From Psococerastis gibbosa (lineage: Eukaryota; Arthropoda; Insecta; Psocodea; Psocidae), in assembly GCA_963971405.1 (NCBI GenBank), contig OZ020484.1, positions 2,666,001 through 2,730,000 on the forward strand: a stretch of DNA of 64,000 nt. The letters run 5' to 3'. The notes under the pieces were generated by a model that saw nothing but the letters and a program-made list of their open reading frames with translations, was not told the origin of the DNA and searched no databases. A program made the translations under genes and the position numbers. Shown piece by piece: positions 17,341-60,329 of this stretch; the stretch's first letter is position 1; each line of letters begins with the position of its first letter.

Positions 17341-20300
17341 GTAAGTCCCGCAGAAAGGACATAATTGAAAAGCGAATTGGACGTCCCCAGCATCCGGTTT
17401 TTAACACTCAGAAGAAGAGAGATGTCAGGAGGTAAAAGTTCAAATACTGTGGCCAATCGGTGTTAGCGACGGGAACATATTGCATACCAAAATGTCGACT
17501 ATTTCTTTTATGAAGGAGAAGAAGAAAATGTCACATCCCTTAAAAGAAATAGGCTACTCTACATTTTGGTATGGGATATGTGGTTGTCACTAACACTCAT
17601 TGGCCACAGTATTTGAACTTCTACCTCCTGACATCTCTCTTCTTCTGAGGTCACAATCTCAACGATTGGTCAGCAGCAACTCCCTGCATATAATCCTCTA
17701 GCTCTCTTGGTCCTGCGTCTACCTCTTCAGCTCTTGGTGTGTTCCTTCAGTTGATCCATGAGTTCCTTCCACTCTGCTCTCAATGATGGTGTGTTCCAGA
17801 TTTTCGCTCCTCATCACATGGCCGAAGTATGTTAGTATCAGTTTCTTAACCGTCAGCGTCTTGAAGAACAAGTACTAGCAATTCTCGGCGAGGGCACAAT
17901 AATTCACAAGCCTTCATTGCATATATGCAAAAATGTACCCGCGAATTAAGGAAAATAAATAAATAATGAAAATAAATAAAAATATATTTCTGTTAAATTA
18001 AACAAAAAAAGGGGCACTTCACACTTTCGGGTCAGTCGAAAAGGCTCACTCACACTCGTATTCATAATAGTGCTGGGCTATGGTGATTACATATTAAGAT
18101 AATAGCTTATTTAACAATTCACCGATTAGTCGATTATATATGATAGGCCTACAGTACGATATCTATTATCTCTATGAACCGTATTATTTGAAAATTTTGT
18201 TACCTTGACACTGTCCCTATCTATTGTTAACCTCTGTTAATCAATGAATTTATTGTAGTACTACTGAATTAGTCTAGTATTATCAAACGCTTATCTAATG
18301 AGCATTCTGGTTAATCATAGGCTTCTATGTCTACATAATAAATCTACGTCAAGGGAGAATACTATAGAAAAGATAAGAAAGGATACTAAAGGATTTTAGT
18401 ACTTCCTATCCAACAACTTTTTTTGTAGTTTTGAGATTTTTCTCTGGTGGGTTGCATAGGCACTCCCTCACGCCATCCAATACTTAACTGACTTGGATCT
18501 GTAGCTCAAAATGTATGGCATGTTTTCTCTCTAACGCTGGCATGTCTGCGGTATATTTCATGCTTTCTTATATTTATAAGTTAGTGTAAGGAAAGGATAG
18601 TCAAAATTTCCGATTTCCGATATATTTTACACGCTTTATTAGGTCATTTGACAGCCTTCTTTCGATGTGGTCTCACCATGACAGTTGTCGGTCACGGGCT
18701 TTATCGACTATGCTAGCTGTAACAGCAAAGGCTTTCACGGCCGGAGTTGAATGAAGAACCAGTAGACCACAGCCCGGGTTCTAAGTAGAAGTAGTAGAAT
18801 GGTTGGACACAGTCCCAGGCCACGGTGTGGGCCCATAGAACAGTGGACCTCCTGATTATAGTGGATTCCGAACCACGAAGCACAGTGAAGTCACACGATT
18901 AGTTCGGAGGTGACCAGGACAAGTCCTACCATGTTCCCCTACCGGCACTGTGCACACGACCCAGTTATCTGCATCTTTGAACCTGCTCTGGTCCGCTGGA
19001 TTCAACTTGGTATGGCGGCCGGCTCAGCCCGGGTTCTACTGGCTCTTCATATGCTAGCTGCCTTCATCTCAGCTCTTATTTTGTCGTTCCGTCTCACACA
19101 GCACACAGTACATCAAAGCACCCCAAACAACTCGAAGGGTGTGTAAGCAAACCCAAACTTTGAATTCTCCTTAATGACTAGATTTAAGACCCCTCAGTGT
19201 TCTTGCGGGCTCATTGTACAACAGTATACAATTGACGTAATCACGAGATCATTATTTATTTTTATCTAAATTATTGGAAGAATATATCAGATGGCGATAC
19301 TTTTCGTTGCTCATCACATGGCCGAAGTATGTTTGTTTCCGTTTCTTAACCGTTAGCACCAACTAGGCTTCTGTATTCATTCGCTTTAGCAATTAAGTGC
19401 GTTGGTGTGCCCACGTTCCAAGCGTTTTTGACGATCTTTCGAGCCGAAATTCTTCAGTGGATTGGCCACGTATACTGTACTCCTGATAGCAGACCGACTA
19501 AAACTGTGTGGGAAACCTCCCCACATGGACCAAGACCTAGAGGAAGACCAAGACCTAGATAGGCAGACCAGTTACAGGAGGCCCGCCTCCATGTCGGCCT
19601 CGACACTGCAGCTTAGGGGCCAGTGGCTAAGGACCGCGTAAGGTGGAGGACTATTGTTAAAGCGGCCAAAAGTCCCTCTGGGCTGACTGCGCCAAATTAA
19701 GCTAAGCTTAAGCAAAGTGCCCAAATTGTTCGAAATAAAACTGGTACTTCTTATTATTGCAGGATTGGGGCGGGGCTCGTGGCACCGGTAGTGACAAGGC
19801 TGCTCGGCATCGAGTTCGAATTGCGAAACAAGGAGTTTTTGGCCGAGGAGAAAGGCGGCGCCATCGTTGTCACCAACCACCAGACTACCTTGGACATTCT
19901 AGGTAGGTTATTATATTAATGTTGTTTTAGGTTACATGTAATGTGGTGGTAAGGGCTGTGACTTTCACACAAAAAGTTGTTCGTTCTTGTCCCAAACTTT
20001 CTCTCTCTTGTCCCAAACTTTCTTTCTTGTCCCAAACTTTCCCTCTTGTCCCAAACTTTCTCTCTTGTCCCAAACTTTCTCTCTTGTCCCAAACTTTCTC
20101 TCTTGTCCCAAACCTTCTCTCTTGTCCCAAACTTTCTCTCTTGTCCCAAACTTTCTCTCTAGTCCCAAGCTTTCTCGCTTGTCCCAGACTATCTTGTCCC
20201 AAACTTTCTCTCTTGTCCCAAGCTTTCTCTCTTGTCCCAAGCTTTCTCTCTTGTACCAAGCTTTCTCTCTTGTCCGAAACTTTCTCTCTTGTCCCAAACT

Positions 20301-22465
20301 TTCTCTCTTGTCCCCTCACCCCCTTTTGATAGCCTGGCATTGGGGGAAAACAGCCCATTGATGGTTTGAGCGTGTGGACTGGTCCTCACTCTTGACCATT
20401 GCTCTATGTAGGATGTTGCGGTCGGCAACATGGGTGGCAGCCGCGTTTTTCTTCTAACAGTAAAGCTACGGTAAAGATTAGGGTTGGATTAAATTATGGT
20501 AGTGCTGAGCTGCAAGCTACTAGCAAGGTCACAGGTGGCGGATAGCGAAGAGGTCACCAAATATGGTGGCTAGCTGCAAATATAATGAATAAGCAGTCCC
20601 CGACCAAGCTGTCGCATAATCGGAGGGTGCTGTGGCAAGTCAGGTACAAATGGGGGCCCTAGTAGCGGTTGCTCTTTTAGTGACGGTAACTATTCGCCCC
20701 CGTCACATAGTAGGCTACTCTGGCTTTTTCTAGACAAACCTACTCTTAACACCACACCTTCCGATTACGCCGCAGCTTGTTTGGGAACTGCTTATTTGGT
20801 ATATTCGCGGCTAGTCAGCATATCTGGCGTATTTTCCTCTATCCGCTTCCTGCGACCCCGCTAGTAACCTATAAACAATAAGTATTATTAATTAAATTAA
20901 TCATGTTGCAGGCCAGTTCGCAGTTTGGCACATTCCTTATAGAGTGGCAGCCGTTGCCAAGCAGGAACTGCGTTACTTCTGGCCGTTTGGCCTGGCAGCC
21001 TGGCTCGCCGGGGTCGTTTTCATTGATCGTCGCAGCTCCAAAAACTCCTACAGGGTCTTGACTGAAGCCGCCAAACTTACCGGGCCTGATAAGGTTTGTA
21101 GCCTACTAATTCAGTGAAGGAATAAATAAATAAATGATAAGTCATAATAACAACAACAAAAGTGTCTCTTTTATGAGCATTCAAACACATGCTTATAAAA
21201 TTGCAATGGGAAAGAGGGCTTAATCTAAGAAAAACCTGATTGGAGTCTGATGACGGCCAATTTAGTTTTCATTATTACCTTTTTTTGTATAGTCTCGTTC
21301 GAGTTTTCAATTGTTATATGGGCTACGGCCCTTTTTATTGGTTACAGGCTAAAATTTGGTTTTTCGCTGAGGGAACGAGGAACAAAGATGCGAACAAAAC
21401 TAAAAAGCTGTTGCCATTGAAGAGGGGAGCATTTAAAATCGCGGTCGACTGCCAGGCTCCCGTTATACCTCTAGTCTACTCCCCCTACTACTTTTTGGAC
21501 ATCAACACCTACCGCTTTGATCCAGGTATGCATATAATTTATTTTTGCCCCGTGGTGGTCGAAAAAACAGATGCACAGTAGTAAGGCGGGCAATGCCGCA
21601 TTACACTCAACAAATCCTTAGAATGTAGGCCTATTAATAGCTTCGTTGAAATCTATAGGATCTATAAGATTGTTTGAGCATGATGTTTTGAACGCAGTCT
21701 AAGAAAATTAAGAATCTCGCCACGTTAGAATTCAAATGTTTTCTTTTTTGATAGAAAATGCTTTATAAAATGATGCGTGTTTTTTATATATTTAAATAAA
21801 TATTTGCAACCATTACACTCGCAATTATCCCACGCTCCGCCAATGATGTACAGTACAGCTCAAATCACAAGTTTATCGTCATAGGTCTGCTGCCTAGCAC
21901 GAGGAGGCTAAGTAATGACTAGCAGGTTATACCTCGACATGTAGCTCGCTGGCCTCGTCAGCGAGGATGGTGTGTCACTGAAACCAGATGATCTCAGGAA
22001 AGTCGGGCTGATACCAGAGGAAGTGATGAATTTATCCGAATGGGCGTGACAAGAGGGAGTTGGAAGAGGCTTATGTATCACACCCGGCAACTTGAGACGA
22101 TTGAAAACACTGACATGAATTAACTTTGGTTGAAAATTGTGAAAATTAGAGGAGCTTGTAGTCCAGCGGTTAAGATGACTCCCCGGTTAGGCGTAGATCG
22201 TGGGTTCGAATCCCGCCAAGCCCAGTTTTTTATATCCTCTAATTTTTCGATCATACTCAATATTATTTGTTTTCCTTTCTCAGGTAGGATAATAATGAAG
22301 GCGTTGCCGGCCATCGAGACCAAAGGCCTCACGGACGACGACATTCCGGACCTGATGGAGCGGACTGCGGCCGTCCTGCAGGAGGCGTACTCAGAGCTGT
22401 TTGCGGAGGTGGAGAAGTCGCTATTGCCCTCCCATCCCTTCCTCACAGGCCAGACGTCCACGTGA
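17153..22465 (+). CDS. AGPAT: 1-acyl-sn-glycerol-3-phosphate acyltransferase (AGPAT), 5 exons, 289 aa
   Basis: Joined exons 17153-17340, 19763-19902, 20912-21093, 21348-21525 and 22284-22465 keep phase throughout, use GT/AG borders and give 870 nt including the stop. The family moves an acyl group from acyl-CoA to lysophosphatidate, making phosphatidate at the ER membrane. Seen: a hydrophobic N-terminus (about 7-22 and 35-54) typical of membrane anchors; motif I NHQTTLD at 101-107 (the HX4D catalytic pair); motif II GVVFIDR at 143-149; motif III FFAEGTRN at 175-182; motif IV APVIPLVYS at 207-215. The length is usual for AGPAT1/2-type enzymes. The motif III Pro (FPEGTR) is Ala here, and an extra Lys/Asn-rich loop follows it. 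The ATG lies 3 nt after a splice acceptor, so a 5' UTR exon upstream is likely but was not found. The 3' UTR runs into an M2 MITE 95 nt after the stop. Confidence 0.95.
17407..17648. mobile_element. foldback element in AGPAT intron 1
   Basis: Arms ACTCAGAAGAAGAGAGATGT (left) and its inverted copy (right) continue through GTCAGGAGGTA and CAAATACTGTGGCCAAT. It starts 66 bp after exon 1. A single-arm match (ACTGTGGCCAATAATTGGCG) occurs near 43240. Confidence 0.75.
17649..17875 (-). pseudogene. RTE-like LINE tail
   Basis: Reverse strand reads LTYFGHVMR-like sequence followed by scrambled WR-rich tail motifs. The segment CACATGGCCGAAGTATGTTAG recurs at 19300-19355 and 32735-32790. Confidence 0.5.
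17876..18720. other. intronic sequence, nothing recognised
   Basis: Part of AGPAT intron 1. AT-rich, with no repeat or coding motif that I can support. Confidence 0.4.
18721..19015 (-). repeat. family B stub and R2 fragment
   Basis: 18725-18770 matches the family B right end in reverse (GGCTTTCACGGCCGGAGT, GAACCAGTAG). 18835-19015 matches R2 in reverse (TTATAGTGGATTCCGAA, GAGGTGACCAGGAC, GTGCACACGAC). Confidence 0.6.
19295..19700. pseudogene. two RTE-like LINE tail fragments
   Basis: 19300-19355 is the CACATGGCCGAAGTATGTT piece (- strand). 19430-19700 (+) encodes a broken WIGHVYCTPDSRP...PHGPRPRGRPR tail with stops, the Arg/Pro-rich end of RTE-like polyproteins. Confidence 0.6.
19763..19902 (+). 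CDS. AGPAT: AGPAT exon 2, motif I
   Basis: Acceptor TTATTATTGCAG; donor GTAGGT. Encodes residues 63-110 with NHQTTLD. Confidence 0.95.
19986..20313 (+). repeat. 19 bp minisatellite in AGPAT intron 2
   Basis: About 17 tandem copies of TTGTCCCAAACTTTCTCTC with point variants (AAGCTTTC, TCCGAAAC). It starts about 85 bp after exon 2. The matching open frames in several registers are a by-product of the repeat. Confidence 0.95.
20590..20760. repeat. dispersed repeat R3, copy 1
   Basis: Shares ACCAAGC-GCATA, GTTGCTC-TTTAGTG, CGTCACATAGT and TTTTTCTAGACAA with 31715-31905, partly in inverted order. Confidence 0.45.
20912..21093 (+). CDS. AGPAT: AGPAT exon 3, motif II
   Basis: Acceptor TCATGTTGCAG; donor GTTTGT. 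Encodes residues 110-170, with KQELRYFWPFG and GVVFIDR. Confidence 0.95.
21348..21525 (+). CDS. AGPAT: AGPAT exon 4, motifs III and IV
   Basis: Acceptor TTGGTTACAG; donor GTATGC. Encodes residues 171-230 with FFAEGTRN and APVIPLVYS. Intron 3 before it is short (254 nt). Confidence 0.95.
21526..22145. other. AGPAT intron 4, left part
   Basis: No host exon. 21900-22090 (+) has a broken LINE-tail-like reading (DDLRKVGLIPEEVMNLSEWA), too weak to classify. Confidence 0.35.
22146..22253 (+). mobile_element. second tRNA-derived SINE family (SINE2), copy 1
   Basis: tRNA-like: AGTCCAGCGGTTAAG (box A region), GGGTTCGAATCCCGCC (box B) and an acceptor-like end CAAGCCC. The tail is TTTTTTATATCCTCTAAT. 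Other copies: 37505-37582 (-), 48411-48535 (-) and 48752-48835 (+). It ends 30 nt before the exon 5 acceptor. Confidence 0.8.
22284..22465 (+). CDS. AGPAT: AGPAT exon 5, C-terminus
   Basis: Acceptor TTTTCCTTTCTCAG; stop TGA at 22463-22465. Encodes residues 230-289, including GLTDDDIPDLMERT, the conserved C-terminal Asp-rich turn of animal AGPATs. Confidence 0.92.
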
Positions 22466-39800: not shown

Positions 39801-42800
39801 AAAAATTAGGTTCGCAAAACAATGTTCGGGACCGGGTATTTTTTTTTTTTTTTTAATATGTTCAGGGGTGTCCCCTGAATGTAAATCCAAGTTGGCGTCA
39901 TGGGGGGTGGAGAGCTTCAGGCGCCATCTTGAAAAACACGTTTTATTGAATATCTCGCGAACCGCGCATCGTACGATAAAACAGTAGAGCTTATTTTTAT
40001 AGATAGTAATATTTTCCAACTTTTTTATTTGAAACGTTTTTCTGTAAAATGCATAGTTTTTTATTTGTAGCGCTTCAAACGTTTTACAATATGGCTTTGC
40101 TAAATATTTAGTTAATGGTCAATGACAAGTTAAAAATGGTGGTAACGCGTTTGTAGAGCATAAAATTTCCTGTAAATTTCATTGGAAACTTTTTCCCGTA
40201 GCATTTATAGTTTATGAGCTATAACGCTGTACATGCCAAGTGATCGCAAAATAATGTTCGAGGTGCAAGTTTTACAAGCTGCAGCTCCTAAACTGTACAT
40301 GCTACGGAAAAAAGTTTCCAATTGAATTTATAGGAAATTTTATGCTCTACAAATGAGTTACCACCTATTTTTAATTTATCATTGACCATTAACTAAATAT
40401 TTAGCAAAACCATATTGTAAAACGTTTGAAGTGCTACAAATAAAAAACTATGCATTTTACAGAAAAAATTTCAAATAAAAACGATGGCAAATATTATTAT
40501 CTATAAAAATAAGCTCTTCTAATTTTATCATACGATGCGCGGTTCGCGAGATATTCAATAAAACGTGTTTTTTAGATGGCGGCTGAAGCTCCCCAACCCC
40601 CATGACGCCAACTTTGATTTACATTCAGGGGACACCCCTGAACATATTCCAAAAAAAATTCCCGGTCCCGAACGTTTCAAAAAAAAAAAAAAAAAAAAAA
40701 TACCCGACTACCCGACCACGATCGGCTGGCATTTGGTCCTTGGAACACTTATAAAAATCGAATAAATTCGGTGTTCCACTTATGCAAGTTTTCGAATAAA
40801 CGATGTGTTTCAAGTGCCATCCTAGCTGTCGTGTTCGGGTAGTAGGCTAGGTACTGGTATATAATAATATGTATGCAATGCATATACGATACAATAATTC
40901 CATAACAGAAGAATAAACAACAGAACAGAAGCCTGATCGAGGCGATTATAATACCGGGGTTAAATAAATACCCTAGGATTATAACTGTAAACAAACAAAT
41001 TTTCAATAGCACTTTCCATTATAAAATTATCTTGTTTACATTTTTAATACCAGGGGATTAAATGAATATACCGGTATTATAATCGCCTCGATCAGGCTGC
41101 TGAACGGTAAATGTTATTAGTAGGTCAATCAGACTTTTAATACAACTTACTGTGAACTGTGCATTGAGTTGACCGCATAGCAATATCCCTGTTCTGTGTA
41201 AATTGGTAGAAAATAGTCGCAACAGTTGAACGACTCGTTGTTCCATTTACAATTAGTTATCAATTTATCACACTTATAGTAGAACTGCAAAAGAATTGAT
41301 AAAAATAATTATAAAGAAGACAGAAATATTATTAAAGAACCAAAACCTTATTCTTTGGTTTGATTTTCCAGCGTAATAGGTACTATCTGTTCATCGTAGT
41401 TCCTTTGGGAAGAAAGTCAACCAGTATTACACCTTCTGCGTCCCAGAAAACCGTGGCCATGTGACCTTGAGGGCACTCTTCTGGGCCCTTTCGAGATCAT
41501 ACCGTAACTATCCAACCCCAGACATTTTCACCCTCAACTGCTAGGATATCCGAAAATGCTTGGGAAGTGTCCATTCGCCGCCTCATGTCAAAGGCGGAAC
41601 GATTTCGGGGGACCCAACACGCCGATACCTTGGACATATCCAGATATTCGTGTAGGATCTCTCCAATTCGCTCTTTACTAACGCCCACGGTTTCAGCTAG
41701 CTGCTAGACACTCAATCTTCTCTCTTCTAGGACTAGTTTTTCCACAAGCTCAACATTTTCGGCCGTAACTGCAGTTGACGGCCGACCACAGCGTGGGTCA
41801 TTTTGAAGGCTCTCCCTCCCCAACAAAAAATAGCGGCGCCATTGTGTTGTTGTTGTTGAGTAACTAGGGCAAGTTTCACCGTACACAGAAAGCATCAAAC
41901 TTCTGATCTCCTTCGCACTTTTCCCACACTTAGTGAAGAATTTAATAACGGCCCTGTACTCAATTTTGTGTTCAGGGTGACATCTAGACAAAATGGTGCA
42001 ACTCAAACGACTGGTATTTTCACTGGCCCATCAGAAATATCCCACGCTATGAACTTTTCAGTCACCCCTCGTAAGTAGAGAATATACAAGAATGGTGTGT
42101 TTTCGAGCATGTTTCAGTTCCAGAATAGCCACGTACCTGGCAAGAGTAGCAAATGCTTGGGGCCCCGCTCCGACGCCTGTCTGACCATAATAATAATGAA
42201 AATTTTAATATTAATTTTGATAGGAACGTTTTTCCGAAATATGTTCACGAGCACGATGCGATGGGCCAAGAACGTCTAAATCATCTGACTTTGTTGAATG
42301 ATTTGCTTAAAGAAGTCGATATTGAGAGTGTTATCTCTAAATTTTCCTATATTAAATCCAGAAAAATTTACTAGTTTTTATTTAATACCTTAAACTAGAG
42401 AACCTGCAACAAACCAGGGGCTCCTTGACCGATTTTGGCCTGGGACTGTCATGTTTGCTTACCCGTTGTAAATTCGCGTCAACGTGGGACACGTCGCACG
42501 TTTGGTTTCGACGAACGCAGAACGTGTAGCAATACGCACAGGTACCATCGTAAAACAGGTAGTCATTAAACAGTTGCGCATATTTATTTTCGTACTCGTC
42601 TGCATATAACCTGAACATTTTTTGAATTAATATTGTTTAAGTGACAATCGGAGCGAGAAAAACCTTATAAGTGCATTATTATCAAATATCTCAAGAAATG
42701 TCAATAGTATAGAGCTGCAAGAGATATCAGAACAAGCAGGAGATATTTTTCTGAGTATTTTGTTGATGCACGTACATATACATTCGCTCATGCAGGAGAA

Positions 42801-45800
42801 AAGTGACACATTTCAAAAAATTGCAAAATTGAGTTATTTATACAAAAATGTCGAGGAAAAAAGTTTAATTTGTTTCCATAAGATTGCGTTTTGTCACTGA
42901 TCCATTGTCAAGTTTGACTACTTCGGGTTTGGCAATCCTGACATAATGCGGAATGTGCTCCAGGCGTTGACGTGGTAATTACACTTCTCTTTCAAGTAAA
43001 CTGTCACATCTCAAAAGTATTAAGTGCCTCGATAGTACTACAAGTAAAAACTAAAAAATGGTCAGAACTAAAATTTGAATTATCTCAAAAGTCAATATTT
43101 AGAAATGTGTCACTTTTCTCGTGCATGAACGAATGCATCCTTTTTCTCACACAGTGACAGATTGCCACAATAAATAATTTTTGAATTTGATTTATACTAA
43201 AAACGATTGGTGTGGTAATCTAAAGGAAGTAGTTCAAGAACTGTGGCCAATAATTGGCGTTAGTGACTCTACCACTCAACCAGGTATTCGGTCCGAACAA
43301 GTCTACATTTTATGTAAAATATAATTATATATACTTGTAGGTAGCGAATCGTTGTTTTTTAGAGTACCACTAGACTTCTCACATATTTTACTACTTTATT
43401 TAAGTTGCATATAATATATACATATATATATGATACTTTATGTACCGTATATGCTGTATATTTATTATAAAAATGCTTATGACGGGATTAGGGATTGCTT
43501 AATTCATAATGTACTTTACCGCTAAAAATTAAATTACTAACTTCCTTGTTTTTTAAAGGTCGTTACAGGTACTTTTCTGTTAAATCACTCTAGCCTATAC
43601 CATGTCCTGATTCCCAATTTGTTTCTTTTCCTTCCAATAGCTTTGAGGGGGGTTGTCAACTAGCGCTACCAAGACTATGAGCTGAGTTCTTTTTAAACCA
43701 TCATAAGCACTTACATTCTTGCGAACGCGTCTATTTTACCATATTCTTTATGTTCGCAAATATATATAGCCGGGAAGGGTGTCTTCCAGTCCAAATATGT
43801 GGTCTCCGTGGCTATGCTGATGGGGTTCTCCCAGTAAGTCTGCAGTGTTGACTGAAACAGCAGGAATGTTCCGAACATGCTTAATGAGCACATTATGAGC
43901 CATATCAACCTGAAATGAACCATATCTCTTCTATTATATCCGAACTAAATTTAGAGACAGGTCTCAGTGTCGATATAGTCTCAGTTCCGAAGGGTTCTCG
44001 ATTTTTTGCAAAATAGTTGGACTAGCGTTTCTTGATGATGACATTGTAGTGTTCTGCAGTATAGTGGAATGAAGTACAAAAATCAGTTAGGCGGGGTTTT
44101 CATTGACCTCGATTTTAAACGTGAGCGAGATATTGACGTGGTAGCAGACATTAGAGACAGTCTAAAAATGTCTGCTACTACTTCGATATCTCGCTCACGT
44201 TCAAAAACGAGGTCAATGGAAACCCCGCCTCATTTATTGTTATTGTTATTATATGTCTGAAATGTTGACTGAAACAGCAGGAATGTTCCGAACATGCTTA
44301 ATGAGCACATTATCAGCCATATCAACCTGGAATGAACCATATCTCTTCTATTATATCCGAACTAAATTTAGAGACTAGGTCTCAGTCACGAAAGTCTCGG
44401 TTCCGAATGGTTCTGGATTTTTTGCAAATTAGTTGGCCTAGCGTTTCTTGATTATGACATTGTAGTGTTCTGCAGTATAGTGGAATGAAGTACAAAAATC
44501 AGTTAGGTGGGGTTTCCATTGACCTCGATTTTAAACGTGAGCGAGATATTGACGTGATAGCAGACATTAGAGACAGTCTAAAAATGTCTGCTACTACTTC
44601 GATATCTCGCTCACGTTCAAAAACGAGGTCAATGGAAACCCCGCCTTATTTATTGTTATTGTTGTTATGTCTGAAATGTTGACTGAAACATCAGGAATGT
44701 TCCGAAAATGCTTAATGAGAACATTATCAGCCATATCAACCTGAAATGAACCATATCTCTTCTATTATATATCCGAACTAAATTTAGAATAAGTTCTTTT
44801 TATGCATTGTTAGAATAAGATTGTTTACGTTAAGCGTATGTATTTTGTAAATTTTATTGTTTTTGGATGTGGGTTAGGCAGAAAAAGACTTTCTAGTCTT
44901 AAGTCTCGCCCCGTAAATATAAGACGTTTATTATTATTATTATTATTATTATTAGAGACTAGGTCTCAGTGTCGATAGTCTCGGTTCCGAAGGGTTCTGG
45001 ATTTTTTGCAAGATAGTTGGACTAGCGTTTCTTGATGATGACATTGTAGTGTTCTGCAGTATAGTGGAATGAAGTACAAAAATCAGTTAGGCGGGGTTTC
45101 CACTGACCTCGTTTTTGAACGTGAGGGAGAAATTGACGTGGTAGCAGACATTAAAGACAGTCTAAAAATGTCTGCTACCACTTCAATATCTCGCTCACGT
45201 TCAAAAACGAGGTCGATGGAAACCCCACTTTATTTATTGTTAGTGTTGTTATGCCTGAAATGTTGACTGAAACAGCATATCAACCTGAAATGAACCATAT
45301 CTCTTCTATTATATCCGAACTAGATACTAAGGTCTCAGTCTCGATAGTCTCTGTTTCAAAGGGTTCTGGATTTTTTGCAAAATGATAGCAGGACAAGCAT
45401 TTCATGATAAGATTATTATTATTATTATTATTATAGTCGTACTGCAGTAGGCCTATAGTGGAATGCAGTAAAAATAATATTTATTAACAGTTATCTTGGG
45501 TGGATTCAAAGCAGAGGCTTCAGTTCAATATTTTAAGCCAGGGGGGGGGGGGCTAGATGGCAATTCGGTGTATTTTTAAACACGGTTGAAACGATTTCCT
45601 AGTTAATTCAGGTCAATGACGTGTTGTTTTCCGATTGCAGGTGGGCAATTGAGCCCCCTCTGGGACCCCAAATGACACCTCAGATCCAAATGAAGTGATG
45701 GAGTGAGTGACTTTTCCACAACTTGTGCTGGATTTTTGCTTTCCAATTTTTAGTTTGTGATGGTCGAAATTTTCGATACCGTGATTTCAACGGATTTACA

Positions 45801-46788: not shown

Positions 46789-48162
46789 ACGCTGTACCTA
46801 TAGTACAATATATATCCGTAAGACTACACTTTCAGTCTGTTTCTTTTAGACTCCCATATTTCACACTCGAATATTGTTTCTACATATTCTTATACATATA
46901 TACTTCTAGATATATTATTATATTATAAAATATGTGTCCGAGAAAAATTCAAAAGTGTATTAGGCTACCTAAATTTAGATTCAAATCGTATAGGTACTTC
47001 AACATAAACATTCCAAAGATTTCAGTGTACGAGTACATGCAGTTTCACCGTACCTAATAAAAAAAAAAAACTGGAAAACGTTTCACACTTCTCCGATACC
47101 ATGAGACAAGCGAGACTATAGAGACACCCATCAGCGGACAACCTAATAAAACTGAGTTGCCTCCCGACAATCAAGATAGAGCCACAGGAAGGTAGCGGAT
47201 CAGACTTCAAATCCCTTTCATAAGAAATTTCACTAATAACTTTATAAGGTAATTGATTTTTTTTAAACATACTGTATTTTTTATATAGGCCTACTTTATC
47301 TTTAAAAGTACCTAATGAACTTTTTTTTTTTTTTTTTTTTCTTCGTGGGGCCTACTCGTTTGAGTTCCTATAAGCGTCGACCTAGAAGGTCTTTTGCTTC
47401 CACGTTTGCCGTCTACGCCCATCTTATAACACCAGTCTTTTTGATAAATCCTAGTGTTTTTGTGATGGGATTAGATCGGATGGTTTCCTCTTCAGACCTA
47501 GGGTGGCCAAGAGCTTGGTATCGAGTTTGTCCCAGCGCTTCACATTCAAAGAGAATGTGTTCAGCTGTTTCTTCTTCAACATCACACAGTCTGCATCTAC
47601 TGTCGTTTTTCACGCCAACCCTATGCATGTGTTTGTTGAAGTGGCCGTGGTCCGTAAGCGTGCCAACCACCCTTCTAGCTTGCTCTCTACTTAAAGAGAG
47701 AAGCTGCTCGGTGAGCTTTTTACTAGGACCCGGAATAACCTTCTTAGCAAATCTGCTTTCCGGGACTTTCTTCCATTCCTCTACAGTTTTTCTCTGCACC
47801 CATTTTTGTACAGAAGTACGGGCCTGGCAGTAAGCCATCCCGTACTTAGGTTCTGCACCAATGAATGGCGTTTCTGCACCTTTTCGAGCCAGCTCGTCGG
47901 CTCTTTCATTCCCATCAAAGTTCGAGTGCGCCGGGACCCAAATCAGCGAGACTGAGTTTTCCCGACACACCTTTATTAGGAGGTTGGTGCAGGCCTACTT
48001 TATCTTTAAAAGTACCTAATGAACTTACTTCTCCAAAATAAAAGTCTCGTGGTCAACAATGTAGCGAAGTCCGTGGATAGAAGAATTGCTCAAGTACAAA
48101 GTTGTTCGGCTGACTATTACTTGTGGCACTCTTATACATATTTTGAATAGAGTCTCCAACAT
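30618..48162 (-). CDS. DEG/ENaC cation channel (pickpocket-like), 9 exons, 519 aa, complete
   Basis: Exons in order: 48162-48029, 43909-43715, 42610-42463, 41284-41151, 39628-39424, 37975-37768, 36840-36690, 32919-32816, 30898-30618. All borders are GT/AG and every junction codon is sensible. The total is 1560 nt with stop, normal for insect pickpockets, which are amiloride-type Na+ channels at the plasma membrane. Seen: HG gating motif at residues 30-31; TM1 about 46-71; FPAIYIC after TM1; Cys-rich extracellular loop with FYDGTCAYCYTFC, the CDYFLPIYTEQGYCY signature, RGCLF, the thumb cysteines CGCIP and CNCLPSC; then GGAAGLFLGASLLSVVEIVYY, TM2 with the GAS (GxS) filter at 438-440. The 63-residue tail holds PPGY (502-505), a possible WW-domain PY motif. 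An in-frame TAG precedes the start ATG. Which pickpocket subgroup it belongs to cannot be told. Confidence 0.95.
30945..31062. other. channel intron 8, nothing assigned
   Basis: GC-richer than its surroundings. A short + strand frame (RRRTKWYGRFYDSSAQLSRL) looks transposon-like but cannot be placed. Confidence 0.3.
31063..31679. mobile_element. M1 MITE, copy 6, split by a LINE
   Basis: M1 ends CAGCCTGATCGAGGCGATA and CGCCTCAATCAGGCTG, separated by the LINE at 31090-31528. The 9 bp TATAATACC of M1 is duplicated on both sides (31081-31089, 31529-31537). Confidence 0.85.
31090..31528 (+). mobile_element. LINE 3' end with TTTCA tail
   Basis: Encodes a fragment LWNSLTDETRTESSLGRFKA, like the C-terminus of CR1/L2-type LINEs. 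A 3' UTR with GAGTAGCCCTTCGGGGCTAA follows, then a (ATTTC)n tail. Related 3' ends lie at 44865-44955, 49655-49730, 54897-54990 (-) and 57225-57515. Confidence 0.75.
31715..31905. repeat. dispersed repeat R3, copy 2
   Basis: ACCAAGCAGCGGCATAGAGG, TTGTCTAGAAAAAGCC, GACTATGTGACGGGACGAA and TGAGCAACCACTA match pieces of 20590-20760. Confidence 0.45.
32002..32393. mobile_element. M4 MITE, copy 2
   Basis: CTAAGGCGCCCATTCCATTG with inverted CAATGGAATGGGCACCTAAG. Arms carry GACGTGGTAGCAGACATTCA and TTTCCACCGACCTCGCATTG. Confidence 0.9.
32456..32692 (-). mobile_element. tRNA-Glu-like SINE, copy 4
   Basis: (AAAT)n tail at the left, CTAAGCCAACCTAGCGGAGT, reversed box B GGACTCGAACC and terminal ACATGTCCTG. 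Confidence 0.88.
32735..32790 (-). pseudogene. RTE-like LINE scrap
   Basis: TACATGGCCAAAGTATGTTAG, the same piece as at 17820 and 19315. It lies 26 bp past the donor of channel exon 8. Confidence 0.5.
32816..32919 (-). CDS. channel exon 8: pre-TM2 segment
   Basis: Acceptor GATTCTTTTGCAG, donor GTAAGT. Encodes residues 392-427, YLKTGTKALLTISADSLSKE then RFIRNIVRTKLDLV. Only 104 nt and hidden from ORF searches. Phase 1 in and 1 out, matching exons 7 and 9. Confidence 0.93.
33252..33334 (-). mobile_element. 83 bp LINE 3' stub with poly-A and target duplication
   Basis: Poly-T followed by a short 3' UTR piece (GCGTCGACCTTTGAGATCT). The 15 bp TAAGGTCCGAAGTAT is present at 33237-33251 and 33335-33349. 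The 3' UTR resembles that of the LINE at 47323-47990 (shared GCGTCGACCT). Confidence 0.85.
33350..34004. other. channel intron 7, no feature
   Basis: A poly-A run near 33694-33709 and an (AATTA)n tract near 33960-33990 lead into the next SINE. Confidence 0.4.
34005..34204 (-). mobile_element. tRNA-Glu-like SINE, copy 5
   Basis: CTATTACTAAGCCAACCTAG, reversed box B GGACTCGAACC and terminal ACATGCCCTG. Confidence 0.88.
34455..35600 (+). repeat. dispersed repeat D1, long copy with an AT-rich insert
   Basis: AACCGGTCCGAGTTTACTCG at the left, a G run at 34570-34582, GTTGGAGCCGTTATTGAGAA, then an insert of about 300 bp (35030-35325, ending TGCAAATAAACGATTATTTA). It continues with TGATTTTTGTGAACCTACAT, ACAGACAGACAG and TTCCTGGGACCTGAAAAC. 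Confidence 0.75.
35612..35972 (-). repeat. dispersed repeat R2, copy 2
   Basis: Reverse of 16646-17003: TTTCAGCATTTCTGCTTTAA, AACCCTGTCAGCCTGGCGGG, TTATAGTGGATTCCGAATCA. Confidence 0.75.
35985..36112 (+). mobile_element. family B hammerhead-like stub, degenerate copy
   Basis: CTGAAGATGTTGAACAGAGATG then TTGGCAAAACGTCTGG: the same CTGANGA / (G)AAACG plan as 4114-4396 with one core G changed to C. Followed by ATTCTACTCCTTCATCA. Confidence 0.5.
36113..36580. other. channel intron 7, no feature
   Basis: AT-rich. Poly-A near 36517-36531. No exon required by the channel phase is missing here. Confidence 0.4.
36585..36655 (+). repeat. family B tail fragment
   Basis: CAGCCCGGATTGTACTGCTTC and CTCATCTGATTCCGGTCACG match the right end of family B. 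It ends 35 bp before the donor side of exon 7. Confidence 0.5.
36690..36840 (-). CDS. channel exon 7: thumb cysteines
   Basis: Acceptor AACTACACAG, donor GTAAGT. Encodes residues 342-392 with CDVPGLWCVNRQRE and CNCLPSCEETEYAIPLNDV, the hallmark Cys cluster of the family. The acceptor tract is weak. An alternative AG at 36781/36780 would break the phase with exon 6. Confidence 0.92.
37028..37430 (+). mobile_element. RTE-like LINE 3' fragment with target duplication
   Basis: Open frame through 37407 encodes MWWYRRMLRISWRDHVTNE, RAKWMGHLLRHENMVHTIIE and EDRVNWRTICREL: the C-terminal region of RTE-type endonuclease/reverse transcriptases. It ends in an (AAG)n tail. The 11 bp GACCGCTAGTA flanks it at 37017-37027 and 37431-37441. 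No stop within the preserved part, so young. Confidence 0.9.
37505..37582 (-). mobile_element. SINE2, copy 2 (partial)
   Basis: TTAGAGGATATAG tail, reversed box B GGGATTCGAACCC, then GATCTACGCCTAAC. The 5' tRNA half is missing. Confidence 0.75.
37768..37975 (-). CDS. channel exon 6: RGCLF and CGCIP
   Basis: Acceptor TTTCATTCCAG, donor GTAAGC. Encodes residues 273-341: ATEIVNDPDLVAEVPIEARG, CLFHSE, then CIVECHMEAAIKECGCIPYI. Read-through into the intron is not coding. Confidence 0.95.
38030..38180. repeat. oligo-G rich repeat scrap
   Basis: G runs at 38040-38052 and 38139-38150 with CACCCCCCTGGGCACGG. On the gene strand these are C runs 65-175 nt upstream of exon 6. Confidence 0.5.
38431..38819 (+). 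mobile_element. 5'-truncated LINE C-terminus with poly-A and target duplication
   Basis: Open frame 38436-38717 (HLRVITGFLSGHCNLNGHL, ACRFCNEGAEDPEHILLHC): the zinc-knuckle end of a Jockey/I-like LINE. A 3' UTR and A22 tail follow. AAGTCAATTATT lies at 38419-38430 and 38820-38831. No inactivating change in the preserved part. Confidence 0.9.
38832..39423. other. channel intron 5, right part
   Basis: A C run at 38892-38904 and GGCTCTGGATCTGTGG scraps. No coding motif. Confidence 0.4.
39424..39628 (-). CDS. channel exon 5: palm/finger segment
   Basis: Acceptor AATGACTTTTAG, donor GTATAC. Encodes residues 204-272: YQNAPKYDRKLHFYSNLSTG, PGTMTLELTASAKTHIRSPEE, PCNHLITYK. The GPG..L...HSPEE-like pattern is typical. 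Confidence 0.9.
39821..40676. mobile_element. ~856 bp foldback palindrome in channel intron 4
   Basis: Left end AATGTTCGGGACCGGGTATT; right end CCCGGTCCCGAACGTT. Arms match over about 400 bp each to a centre near 40248: GGGTGTCCCCTGAATGTAAA, ATATCTCGCGAACCGCGCAT, GTTTTACAATATGG. No coding capacity. Confidence 0.9.
40930..41100. mobile_element. M1 foldback MITE, copy 7
   Basis: GCCTGATCGAGGCGATTATA to CGCCTCGATCAGGC. It ends 50 bp from the donor of channel exon 4. Confidence 0.85.
41151..41284 (-). CDS. channel exon 4: GYCY signature
   Basis: Acceptor AATTCTTTTGCAG, donor GTAAGT. Encodes residues 160-204: FYYKCDKLITNCKWNNESFN then CCDYFLPIYTEQGYCYAVNS. Hidden in a shadow frame. Phase 0 in, 2 out, fitting exons 3 and 5. 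Confidence 0.94.
41395..42055 (-). pseudogene. mariner-like transposase relic
   Basis: The N-terminal half reads YRAVIKFFTKCGKSAKEI, VYGETCPSYSTTTTQWRRYF, LGRESLQNDPRCGRPSTAVT, then after a stop GVSKERIGEILHEYLDMSKV. Near 41400-41450 comes HMATVFWDAEGVILVDFLPK. The catalytic DDD-bearing middle is lost by deletion and stops break the frame. Sits in channel intron 3. Confidence 0.9.
42150..42374 (+). pseudogene. hAT-type transposase C-terminal fragment
   Basis: Frame ending DAMGQERLNHLTLLNDLLKE then VDIESVISKFSYIKSRKIY-stop resembles the C-terminal end (ERLN...I...F...K.R) of hAT/ZMYM-type transposases. Family by pattern only. Confidence 0.55.
42463..42610 (-). CDS. channel exon 3
   Basis: Donor GTAAGC; acceptor AAAAAATGTTCAG (poor pyrimidine tract). 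Encodes residues 110-159: LYADEYENKYAQLFNDYLFY, DGTCAYCYTFCVRRNQTCDV. The GTC..C...C pattern matches Nach/pickpocket proteins. Confidence 0.9.
42615..43200. repeat. diverged repeat pair
   Basis: GTGACACATTTC / GAAATGTGTCAC and TGCATGAACGAATGCAT-like segments near 42630-42830 and 43000-43160 form an imperfect inverted pair. AT-rich foldback, unnamed. Confidence 0.45.
43715..43909 (-). CDS. channel exon 2: TM1 and post-TM1 FPAIYIC
   Basis: Acceptor GGTTCATTTCAG, donor GTAAGT. Encodes residues 45-110: LIWLIMCSLSMFGTFLLFQS (TM1), WKTPFPAIYICEHKEYG. Its 5' 64 bases and acceptor recur three times upstream in a tandem array. Confidence 0.95.
43846..45480 (-). repeat. tandem array carrying partial copies of the TM1 exon
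   Basis: Units start at 43846 (real exon), 44263, 44677 and 45261, so lengths are 417, 414 and 584 bp plus a partial fourth. Each holds TTGACTGAAACAGCAGGAAT (or a variant), the acceptor side CATATCAACCTG-AATGAACC, CTCTTCTATTATATCCGAAC and a hairpin. Unit 3 is longer because a LINE 3' end (44780-44955) has inserted. Unit 4 keeps only the first bases of the exon and the acceptor. Confidence 0.92.
44071..44230. mobile_element. compact hairpin MITE within the array (x3)
   Basis: GGCGGGGTTTTCATTGACCT with inverted AGGTCAATGGAAACCCCGCC. Copies are at 44071-44230, 44487-44645 and 45071-45232. Shares TGACGTGGTAGCAGACATT and GTTTCC-(A/C)-GACCTCG with the larger M4 family. Confidence 0.85.
45500..45740. 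other. G run and unclassified sequence
   Basis: G run at 45541-45552. Intron 1 of the channel gene. Confidence 0.4.
45745..46640 (-). repeat. dispersed repeat D1, reverse copy
   Basis: GAGGTCCCAGGAACC, TTACGAAATGTCTGTCTATC, AACTACTCAGTGCATTTGGA, AAAACGGCTTCAGCGATTTC, then an insert with two G runs (46149-46162, 46250-46269). It ends with TCACGCTCTAATACATTGCG and a C run. Confidence 0.75.
46641..47286. other. channel intron 1: (TATG)n tract, no exon
   Basis: (TATG)n at about 46761-46786. A 47022-47270 reverse frame has fair composition but no recognised motif, and the channel phase needs no exon here. Confidence 0.4.
47323..47990 (-). mobile_element. young 5'-truncated LINE (RNase H end) next to a splice donor
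   Basis: An uninterrupted frame runs from 47990 to 47413. It has the RNase H end (IWVPAHSNFDGNERADELAR) and a CRLCDVEEETAEHILFECEA zinc knuckle, then a short 3' UTR and an A20 tail. A 36 bp duplication starting AGGCCTACTTTATC is exact at 47287-47322 and 47991-48026. The right copy ends at the G/T of the channel exon 1 donor, supplying all intron bases after GT. Confidence 0.93.
48029..48162 (-). CDS. channel exon 1: start, HG gating motif
   Basis: ATG at 48162-48160, preceded by an in-frame TAG 27 nt upstream. Donor GTAAGT. Encodes residues 1-45, ending SNSSIHGLRYIVDHETFILEK. The His-Gly pair is the conserved gating residue pair of DEG/ENaC channels. Confidence 0.92.
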
Positions 48163-57515: not shown

Positions 57516-57630
57516 GCCACACCCAATGACTCAAAGAGCCGCATGAAGCTCGCGAGCCTCACGTTGCCGACAAATCAGGACAGGGTACCATCATGACGCA
57601 CCTTGGCATTTGCAATTGTTCGCAGGCGAG

Positions 57631-57856
57631 ATGGGGCTGGTTCTGATGCTGTTGCTGTGTTTCCTGCTGGAATTTTCAACAGCAGACGACGACGGATATG
57701 ACAGAGATGACTGTCCTGTCAGACGACTCGATAACGGCCGAGCACGGGGTCGACTCAACGCCAGGTACATATGTAAGAGGGGCTACCAACTCGTCGGCCC
57801 CAAATTCGCCCACTGCGTTCAAGGTGTCTGGGATGTAGATATGCCTGTTTGCACCA
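57631..57856 (+). CDS. sushi protein exon 1: signal peptide and sushi 1
   Basis: Donor GTAAGTAT after ACC-A. The open frame runs on in the intron to 57882, but the splice site and domain end favour 57856. Confidence 0.88.
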
Positions 57857-60329
57857 GTAAGTATCTGCTTCAAAAGGATTAATTACTGTACATGCAAATA
57901 ATTTAATGAATGTATCCGATTGACCTCTTCAGTCGCCTCTGTAGGTTAGTACCCGTGTTGAGTTGCGATACGTCTCCGATCGCATCGCGTGTAGAGACTC
58001 GTACAAGTACAAGCACGATACCACCTTGCCATCGAAGATCTGTGTTGCTGTTGCCAGTGGGGTATACATGACAAGCCCCCCCCCCCTTGAAATGGGAAAC
58101 TATTAGAAGAACTACTGTGAGTGCAAAATTAGACAGATCTACTAGTAATAGATGTAATAGATAGGGGTAAGCGTCATCTGGGACCTCTACCCGTGGCATC
58201 AAGTTTATAGCTACGAGTAGTGGCGATCGGATCTTGCCCCCCCCCCTCCAAACAATATTTGATAAGTTTAATATTTTATATATATATATAGTATAGGCTA
58301 TTTATACAGTACATACACAATATATCTTATATTTGATCGTACCTCCTTAAACATTTTAAATACCGTAGCTTAGGCGCCAATTCCATTGACCGGCTAGGGC
58401 TATTTCCAAAAACAGTGACGTGGTAGCAGACATTCAAGTCTTAGGTTGCGTTTCCATCGATCTCGCATTGCAGAATGCAAATGACATTGACGGAAATTAG
58501 AATTTTTCTTTTTATATAGAAATCTATTAAAATGTTTGTACTTAACATATCCCATGACGCTATTTTTTTAATTTTAGTTTGTTTGTTTGTGATTTTACTG
58601 TATGATCATTGATCAATTTTAACTATGGCATAAAGGAAAATAAACATTTCCGCCAATTCTGCAATGCGAGGTCGGTGGAAACGCCACCTAAGTCTTGAAT
58701 GTCTGCTACCACGTCACCGTTTTTGGAAATAGCCCTAGCCGGTCAATGGAATTGGCGCCTAAGCTACGGTATTTAAAATGTTTAAGGAGGTACGATCAAA
58801 TATAAGATGTATTGTGTATATACTGTATAAATAGCCTATACTATATATATATATATAAAATATTAAACTTATCAAATATTGTTTGGAGGGGGGGGGGGGC
58901 AAGATCCGATCGCCACTACTCGTAGCTATAAACTTATACCATAGAATGATTATCATCCAGCTATGAAACTCAAAGGGTGCTAGATTTCCTCATCAATGTC
59001 AGGTTGCTACATGGTTCTTCATTAGCTAAAACGTAACACACTGCTAACCGTAAATAAAACACAGAGTGCGTTATTTAGGATACTAGAAGTCTATAGTTGT
59101 CTAGTATAACGTATTGGAGGATTTATTAGTAATATACATAATTATAACACCTTCTAAGACCAGCAAGTGGATTTCATAGAGGGAAGAATGGAGAACAAGC
59201 AGCCGCAATGGTTCGACCACGTCCAAAGGATGGACGAGAACAGAACCACCCGGAGGTTGGCGGAAGCAAGGCCGCAAGGAAGAAGACCCATCGGCAGACC
59301 GAGGACAACCCTCGAGGAAAGGATTGAACAACTCGCCGGAGCAAGAGGGAAAACAATGGCCGAGCTCAAGGTGTTAACGTCCGACCGGGGCGAGTTCAGG
59401 AAATGGGTTTGAGGCGACCCCCTCACGCTGCGCAAGCGGCACTAAGGGGAAAAAAGAAGAATAACACCTTTTTGAAAAACAACCCTAGGTACCAGTGGCG
59501 TAAATAACTTCTGCTGCCCCCCCCCACCCGCACAAGACCTTTGGTGCGCCACTACCGAGCGGCGTAACAATAGATTTTCGAAGGGGGCGGTGTATAATTT
59601 GGCGCCCCCCCCCAATTATCACAAAAGTTTTAAAAAGACTCATGGACGCACGCAGCTTTTAAATTAATGACCTTAGTGTCCTTTACGCAGGAGGCTCAGG
59701 GTTCTGGAGTCCTGCAGCGGGGCCTGGGGATGAAAAAGTGGGATTTTACGCAAGAAGAAGAAGAAGAAGAAGGAGAAGAAGAAGAAAAAGAAGAAGAAAA
59801 GGAAGAAGAAGAAGAAGAAGAAGAAGAAGAAGAAGAAGAAGAAAAAGAAGAAGAAGAAGAAGAAGAAGAAAAAGAAGAAGAAAAAGAAGAAGAAGAAGAA
59901 GAAAAAGAAGAAAAAGAAGAAGAAGAAGAAGAAAAAGAAGAAAAAGAAGAAAAAGAAGAAGAAGAAAAAGAAGAAGAAGGAGAAGAAGAAGAAAAAGAAG
60001 AAAAAGAAGAAGAAAAAGAAGAAGAAAAAGAAGAAAAAGAAGAAGAAGAAGAAGAAGAAGAAGAAGAAGAAGAAAGAAAGGTTCAAAATTGCATTTCCTT
60101 ACAAGTAAAGAGGTCATCATTTTCAGGACCGTCTTGCTATTAATCGTAATATTTGTTTCAGAGCCGGGTTGCCCACGGTCCAATGCGCAGTTCATCAATG
60201 GGATCTTTTCGGAAACTTACCGGGGAGCTGTCGTACGAGTGATCTGCGCCCCCGGGTATCAGACCAAAGGTACGCCTGTGGTCTACTGCAACGGCAGGCG
60301 CTGGAACGACACATTTCCTGTATGCACCG
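57631..60329 (+). CDS. secreted sushi (CCP)-domain protein, first two coding exons (incomplete)
   Basis: Exons 57631-57856 and 60162-60329 join in phase 1. Residues 1-18 (MGLVLMLLLCFLLEFSTA) form a clear signal peptide, so the product is secreted or on the cell surface. An acidic stretch follows, then sushi domain 1 with Cys 28, 48, 62, 74 and Trp 67, and sushi domain 2 with Cys 79, 104, 118, 130 and Trp 123. Both show the C..GY....C.....W...P.C order. Exon 2 is 168 nt with phase 1 on both sides, the usual modular sushi exon, so more such exons probably follow beyond 60329. I found none before the window end. An upstream 5' UTR exon is likely because the ATG lies 5 nt after the acceptor TTGTTCGCAG. 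The specific orthologue cannot be named. Confidence 0.88.
57897..58041 (+). repeat. dispersed repeat R1, copy 4
   Basis: AATTTAATGAATGTATCCGA, GTACCCGTGTTGAGTTGCGA, CGTCTCCGATCGCATCGCG. Confidence 0.65.
58201..58935. mobile_element. 735 bp nested palindrome with M4 at its centre
   Basis: Outer arms 58201-58367 and 58765-58935 are near-exact inverse copies (AGTTTATAGCTACGAGTAGT, ACAATATTTGATAAGTTTAA, (TA)n, ATTTGATCGTACCTCC). The M4 element 58368-58764 occupies the exact middle. Confidence 0.9.
59154..59460 (+). mobile_element. RTE-like LINE tail with target duplication
   Basis: Open frame to 59412: NKQPQWFDHVQRMDENRTTR, RLAEARPQGRRPIGRPRTTL. Ends in an A-rich (AAGA) tail. ATAACACCTT lies at 59144-59153 and 59461-59470. 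Confidence 0.88.
59500..59620. repeat. oligo-C rich scrap
   Basis: C runs at 59517-59525 and 59605-59613 with GTGCGCCAC and AAGGGGGCGG. Unclassified. Confidence 0.4.
59755..60076 (+). repeat. (GAA)n / purine microsatellite in sushi intron 1
   Basis: About 320 bp of GAA with AAAGAA and AGGAGAA variants, all purine on the + strand. It ends 86 nt before sushi exon 2. The Glu-, Arg- and Phe-rich frames across it are artefacts. Confidence 0.97.
60162..60329 (+). CDS. sushi protein exon 2: sushi 2
   Basis: Acceptor ATATTTGTTTCAG, donor GTGAGA. Residues 76-132. Confidence 0.9.

Follow-up and report, generated by a model that had tools for sequence, protein, structure and literature searches.

A tandemly copied intron–exon boundary, interleaved with hairpin elements, in a pickpocket-type DEG/ENaC gene of Psococerastis gibbosa

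How does an intron come to end in several copies of its own boundary with the following exon, and which of the resulting acceptors would then be spliced to? The question is raised by a 64,000-nucleotide stretch of the insect Psococerastis gibbosa (assembly GCA_963971405.1, contig OZ020484.1, positions 2,666,001 to 2,730,000 of the forward strand), hereafter the window, whose own numbering is used throughout. There, in a minus-strand gene identified by its predicted peptides as a DEG/ENaC gene of the pickpocket type, the end of intron 1 holds four tandem head-to-tail copies of the intron 1/exon 2 boundary, with first exonic bases at 45284, 44740, 44326 and, for the true exon 2, 43909. A preliminary description of the stretch had proposed that the edge of the exon encoding the first transmembrane segment (TM1) was tandemly copied, and Tandem Repeats Finder (TRF), a repeat search, and an alignment of the units all agree with it, bringing the number of extra copies to three. 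Sequence comparison thus confirms the array as real, and we consider it quite probable that it arose by a tandem duplication across the intron–exon boundary, a later insertion of a hairpin at the joint, and a subsequent expansion by unequal exchange.

TRF delimits a repeat at 43838-44788 (period 416, 2.3 copies, 94% matches, score 1703), and the repeat search, whose families D1, D2, and D6 give copy spacings of 417, 414, and 584 bp, adds more copies upstream. Aligned with one another, the units are clearly similar, which was the alignment check named in the preliminary description. The spacings given there stand, with the refinement that the 584-bp one adds an insertion of 168 bp to a unit of 416 bp, and the limits proposed for the array (43846 to 45480) are revised to about 43835-45483, possibly with some 10 bases more upstream. 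When positions 43700-45600 were compared by BLAST with the rest of the window, with the low-complexity filter on, no match was found at E<=1e-10. A search of Rfam gave no match in the array and two tRNA-like matches outside it, at 22152 and 48758. Read along the minus strand, the array opens with the intron segment of unit 4, its 32-nt exon stub, a flank, hairpin copy c, and the intron segment of unit 3 with its 168-bp insertion; it continues with the 72-nt stub of unit 3, a flank, hairpin copy b, and the intron segment of unit 2, and it ends with the 72-nt stub of unit 2, a flank, hairpin copy a, the intron segment of unit 1, and the true exon 2. In the same order, its parts are as follows:

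45285..45483, minus strand: intron segment of unit 4, more diverged than any other, with no hairpin found at its left; left edge within about 10 bases (unit alignment)
45253..45284, minus strand: exon stub of unit 4, shortened to 32 nt by an internal deletion of 40 bp, acceptor ttcag/G (unit alignment)
45090..45229, minus strand: hairpin copy c, 140 nt, flanked by TAA on each side, 12-13/140 differences to copies a and b
44741..45089, minus strand: unit 3 intron segment, with the 168-bp insertion (unit alignment)
44669..44740, minus strand: exon stub of unit 3, 72 nt, with acceptor ttcag/G (unit alignment)
44506..44645, minus strand: hairpin copy b, 140 nt, flanked by TAA on each side (dissection of units, folding)
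44327..44505, minus strand: unit 2 intron segment (unit alignment)
44255..44326, minus strand: exon stub of unit 2, 72 nt, with acceptor ttccag/G (unit alignment)
44090..44229, minus strand: hairpin copy a, 140 nt, flanked by TGA and TAA (dissection of units, folding)
43910..44089, minus strand: intron segment of unit 1, bearing the true acceptor (unit alignment)

The insertion in unit 3 (about 44784-44951) has TCTAA on each side and, on the plus strand, terminates in (TTA)n; it is perhaps a truncated retroelement.

The copies hold a beginning of exon 2 and no more. Units 2 and 3 carry its first 72 of 195 nt, unit 4 is reduced to 32 nt by the 40-bp deletion, the exon 2 donor is missing from all three, and each reads into a stop; the earlier observation that the copies lack the donor and the 3' part of the exon therefore holds, its extent being corrected to these 72 nt, and, as had been stated, no copy is a functional exon. 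A TM1-like reading is kept in unit 2 (LIWLIMCSLSMFGTFLLFQS) and in unit 3 (LIWLIMFSLSIFGTFLMFQS), each with its acceptor, as had been noticed; the deletion takes most of this reading out of unit 4, which nonetheless keeps its acceptor, so that the decoy acceptors number three and not two. Behind all three stubs lies a common joint, formed by CAGAC (two of three) or CAGGC (one of three), an AT-rich flank of 23-25 nt, and the hairpin.

The true exon 2 is recognizable from its place in the host gene, of which three exons were assembled around the array:

48029..48162, minus strand: exon 1, taken from an in-frame ATG, the real start possibly lying upstream; Pfam ASC match of 1.8e-19 jointly with exons 2 and 3
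43715..43909, minus strand: true exon 2, which closes the array downstream and encodes TM1 and the beginning of the extracellular domain; Pfam ASC match of 1.3e-11 alone
42463..42610, minus strand: exon 3, in frame with exon 2

Once joined, these exons give a single open frame of 159 residues, and exon 2, 195 nt in length, is bounded by an acceptor ttcag/G and a donor AAT/gtaagt; its acceptor, its donor, and its frame with exons 1 and 3 all fit the position at the array end assigned to it in the preliminary description. Four more exon peptides match Pfam ASC, at 1.2e-8, 2.1e-11, 7.7e-5 (22.3 bits, under the curated cut-off of 23.6), and 3.6e-6, and the best matches among solved chains are 9pzn_A (an amiloride-sensitive Na+ channel, 6.5e-8) and 9pzn_B (Pickpocket 26, 1.3e-7). 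No exon was located for positions 102-146, 185-272, and 372-427 of the ASC profile, and the gene model is thus incomplete. Mobile sequences lie in the same gene. A perfect 36-bp direct repeat (47287-47322 and 47991-48026) surrounds RNase H and zf-RVT matches with a poly-A end; by these features, the enclosed stretch is a truncated non-LTR retroelement within intron 1. The repeat starts 3 bases inside the intron, and the exon 1 donor GTAAGT is intact. In the intron after exon 3, a fragment on the minus strand (41707-42030) matches the helix-turn-helix (HTH) domain of the Mos1 transposase at 6.6e-6.

What, then, would become of a transcript in which three acceptors precede the true one? Decoy splicing, raised as a possibility in the preliminary description, is permitted by the sequence, as the 40 intron bases that precede the acceptors of units 2, 3, and 4 are nearly identical to those before the true one. 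Splices from exon 1 to the acceptor of unit 2, 3, or 4 were modelled, either reading through to exon 2 or passing via the gtgagc of the hairpin, and six of six products meet a premature stop, at residue 76, 69, or 62; an occasional use of the decoys would then lead to a premature stop and, probably, to nonsense-mediated decay. The hairpin places this donor-like gtgagc downstream of each stub. Behind stubs 2 and 3, the best donor-like GT is AAC/gtgagc, within the hairpin, with a score of 2.4 against 2.95-5.23 for six real donors on a donor scoring matrix, by which about 3% of the 3408 GT sites of the minus strand score at least 2.5. Since no good donor lies behind them, the decoys of units 2 and 3 would probably be skipped under exon definition, and skipping, with some unproductive transcripts now and then, is the likely fate of the decoys as a whole. 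Intron gain by tandem duplication would call for a new intron that is spliced from a donor in the upstream copy; as candidates, the array offers donor-like sites of 2.4 (stubs 2 and 3) and 3.5 (stub 4), to be read against the same 2.95-5.23 of real donors.

Two other interpretations of the repeated boundary were set aside. A ratchet site is an acceptor with a consensus donor GTAAGT immediately after it; in all four units the acceptor is followed by GTTGAT, which rejects a recursive (ratchet) splice site. Tandem duplication of the whole exon is likewise rejected, the exon 2 donor being absent from all three copies and the modelled products stopping at residues 62-76.

The units are of unequal age or have at least diverged unequally. 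Their intron segments differ by about 2-12%, with 3 mismatches between units 1 and 3, 9 between units 2 and 3, 10 between units 1 and 2, and 14-19 mismatches plus 7-8 gaps between unit 4 and the others. Among 156 gap-free intron columns, 20 single out unit 4 (a part of them falling within a (TAA)n stretch), 7-8 single out unit 2, and 1 or 2 single out each of units 1 and 3. The exon parts differ at 3/72 positions between units 1 and 2, 3/72 between units 2 and 3, and 6/72 between units 1 and 3, and the hairpins at 3/140 (a-b), 12/140 (a-c), and 13/140 (b-c).

Each hairpin copy folds as a single 140-nt hairpin (-95.6, -95.6, and -101 kcal/mol; z from -18.6 to -18.8), whose 75-nt arms, complementary at 85-87%, form terminal inverted repeats. 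TAA stands on both sides of copies b and c, and TGA and TAA flank copy a. MITEs (miniature inverted-repeat transposable elements) of the PIF/Harbinger type carry inverted repeats at their ends and duplicate a 3-bp TAA/TTA target; they are also expected to have many copies dispersed over the genome and a related transposase. With its inverted repeats and TAA flanks (two of three copies), the hairpin has the structural features of a MITE, which we take from the TAA flanks to be PIF/Harbinger-like; the name is provisional because the window holds no copy of the hairpin outside the array. Indeed, a 27-base hairpin pattern (<=3 mismatches) has six matches in the window, all within the array (mean of 100 shuffles, 0.00), and no further hairpin copy was found elsewhere in it. 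Exact patterns of 27 bases against viral contigs and of 20 bases against genome contigs gave 0 matches each, in viral and prokaryotic collections that say little about animal genomes. The preliminary description had credited every unit with a hairpin; three were recovered for the four boundary copies, one at each stub/intron joint (3/3), and the fourth, looked for at the left of unit 4, was not found.

On these grounds, we infer the following order of events. A tandem duplication of roughly 270-280 bp, comprising the last part of intron 1 together with 72 nt from the start of exon 2, would have come first and left an intact boundary at its downstream end, so that splicing of exon 1 to the true acceptor stayed possible and the duplicated DNA could persist as intron. 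The 140-bp hairpin would next have been inserted at the stub/intron joint, unequal exchange between homologous units would have produced the four boundary copies, and the 168-bp insertion in unit 3 and the 40-bp deletion in the stub of unit 4 would have come last. That the duplication preceded the hairpin is likely, since the hairpins sit in the joints and unit 4, the most diverged, lacks one at its left, when a hairpin already present in the single-copy intron should have left one in that leftmost unit.

The reverse order, in which the hairpin came first and drove the amplification through breaks or fork stalling, as in a transposon-seeded tandem array, had been put forward in the preliminary description. 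All three inter-unit joints do hold a hairpin of marked stability (-95.6 to -101 kcal/mol, z about -18.7), and a study of coral CMITEs attributes their tandem arrays with similar spacers to replication slippage (PMC2872659). However, the position of the hairpins inside the duplication joint and the lack of one at the left of the leftmost unit, where a pre-existing hairpin should persist, leave a driving role unsupported and this order rather unlikely, even if the empty-site alignment that opposes it is weak and hence not decisive. The hairpin is more likely a passenger than a driver, with a possible role in later rounds. An assembly artefact, in which a false array was built by joining haplotypes or reads, would find some room in the closeness of units 1 and 3 (3 intron mismatches) and of hairpins a and b (3/140), near enough for two haplotypes. 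Yet unit 4 and its joint are much more diverged (14-19 intron mismatches, 7-8 gaps), an insertion is found only in unit 3 and a deletion only in unit 4, and the copies cannot be one molecule repeated by the assembler because their intron segments differ by about 2-12%; we regard an artefact as very improbable, at least one duplication having to be real on this divergence, while one unit could still be false. Returning to duplication, hairpin insertion, and unequal exchange, several observations sit poorly with that history or with the skipping of all decoys. The 5' flank of the hairpin aligns weakly with the left edge of unit 4 (shuffle p of 0.061, 0.021, and 0.0895 for the three flanks), so that a hairpin at the left end may have been lost. 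The order after unit 4 is a mosaic, introns pairing units 1 and 3 (3 differences) and hairpins pairing a and b against c, and relative-rate counts among the units are too few to order the later duplications. Behind stub 4, the GT of GAG/gtcagt scores 3.5, higher than two of the six real donors, and the acceptor stretch of unit 4 appears in some tests more invariant than even drift predicts.

This last point bears on whether the decoys might be functional, that is, whether a regulated unproductive splicing, by a poison exon or an extended exon 2, tunes the expression of the channel. Over 45 gap-free columns around the acceptor, the changes that separate unit 4 from units 1, 2, and 3 number 0, 1, and 0, against 27, 28, and 26 of 143 outside (18, 19, and 17 of 124 without (TAA)n), and permutation of the longest invariant run, for the pairs with unit 4 and for all four units, gives p between 0.0003 and 0.17 according to the pair and the columns used; the gtgagc behind each stub would add a donor of sorts. 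The 45-column window was, however, picked after the data were seen, and the first, wider one gave Fisher p of 0.059, 0.111, and 0.092, with 0.129 when only the three younger units were compared. Invariant runs among units 1-3 are not significant (p 0.10-0.36), stubs 2 and 3 are followed by weak donors only (2.4), 40 bp have been lost from stub 4, and local conversion from the true boundary would mimic selection at the acceptor. The near-invariant stretch may thus hint, weakly and post hoc, at selection or conversion, and functional decoys appear to us scarcely probable. Only a small chance is likewise given to a boundary caught midway from duplication to intron or exon gain, in which selection or conversion would keep the acceptors and poison exons made of stub and hairpin would throttle the channel gene.

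Elsewhere in the window, a plus-strand match to Acyltransferase (PF01553; 21240-21578, 2.1e-8) is probably an exon of another host gene, and a Sushi repeat match lies at 57547-57879 on the plus strand (1.1e-4). A minisatellite with a 19-base unit and 17.5 copies occupies 19985-20314, and an AAG-rich purine repeat of 323 bases (59752-60074) gives rise to long artificial open reading frames (ORFs) on both strands.

The kind of event proposed here is already known. In a potato RdRp gene, a tandem duplication over the boundary of the first intron and second exon is reported to have created a new intron, shown by RNA-seq, which uses a cryptic donor within the portion of the exon that was copied, with ten differences between the copies (PMC4974935). 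Unlike it, the present array has three extra copies, a stop behind each, and a hairpin per joint, and its stubs 2 and 3 lack a strong donor. The coral CMITEs are likewise full-length hairpin-type elements tandemly repeated with a similar spacer, for which slippage was proposed; they show TTAA duplications and are piggyBac-like, whereas here the flank is TAA and the spacer a host intron–exon boundary (PMC2872659). In 15 fly lines, 1901 duplications, mostly tandem, with a median of 367 nt, are quoted from Emerson et al., 624 of which are said to hold some exonic sequence and no whole gene (PMC2891723). These resemble our array in size class and in the inclusion of part of an exon, but are single polymorphic events, when the array is diverged and in four copies. 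The array itself was not found in literature searches of open-licence papers, mostly screened as listings. It is real but a fairly ordinary outcome of local DNA duplication, unusual only as repeated, diverged, and hairpin-interleaved, and it lets one ask, in a compact natural setting, how the splicing machinery chooses one of four near-identical acceptors, the first three of which are decoys expected to truncate the protein.
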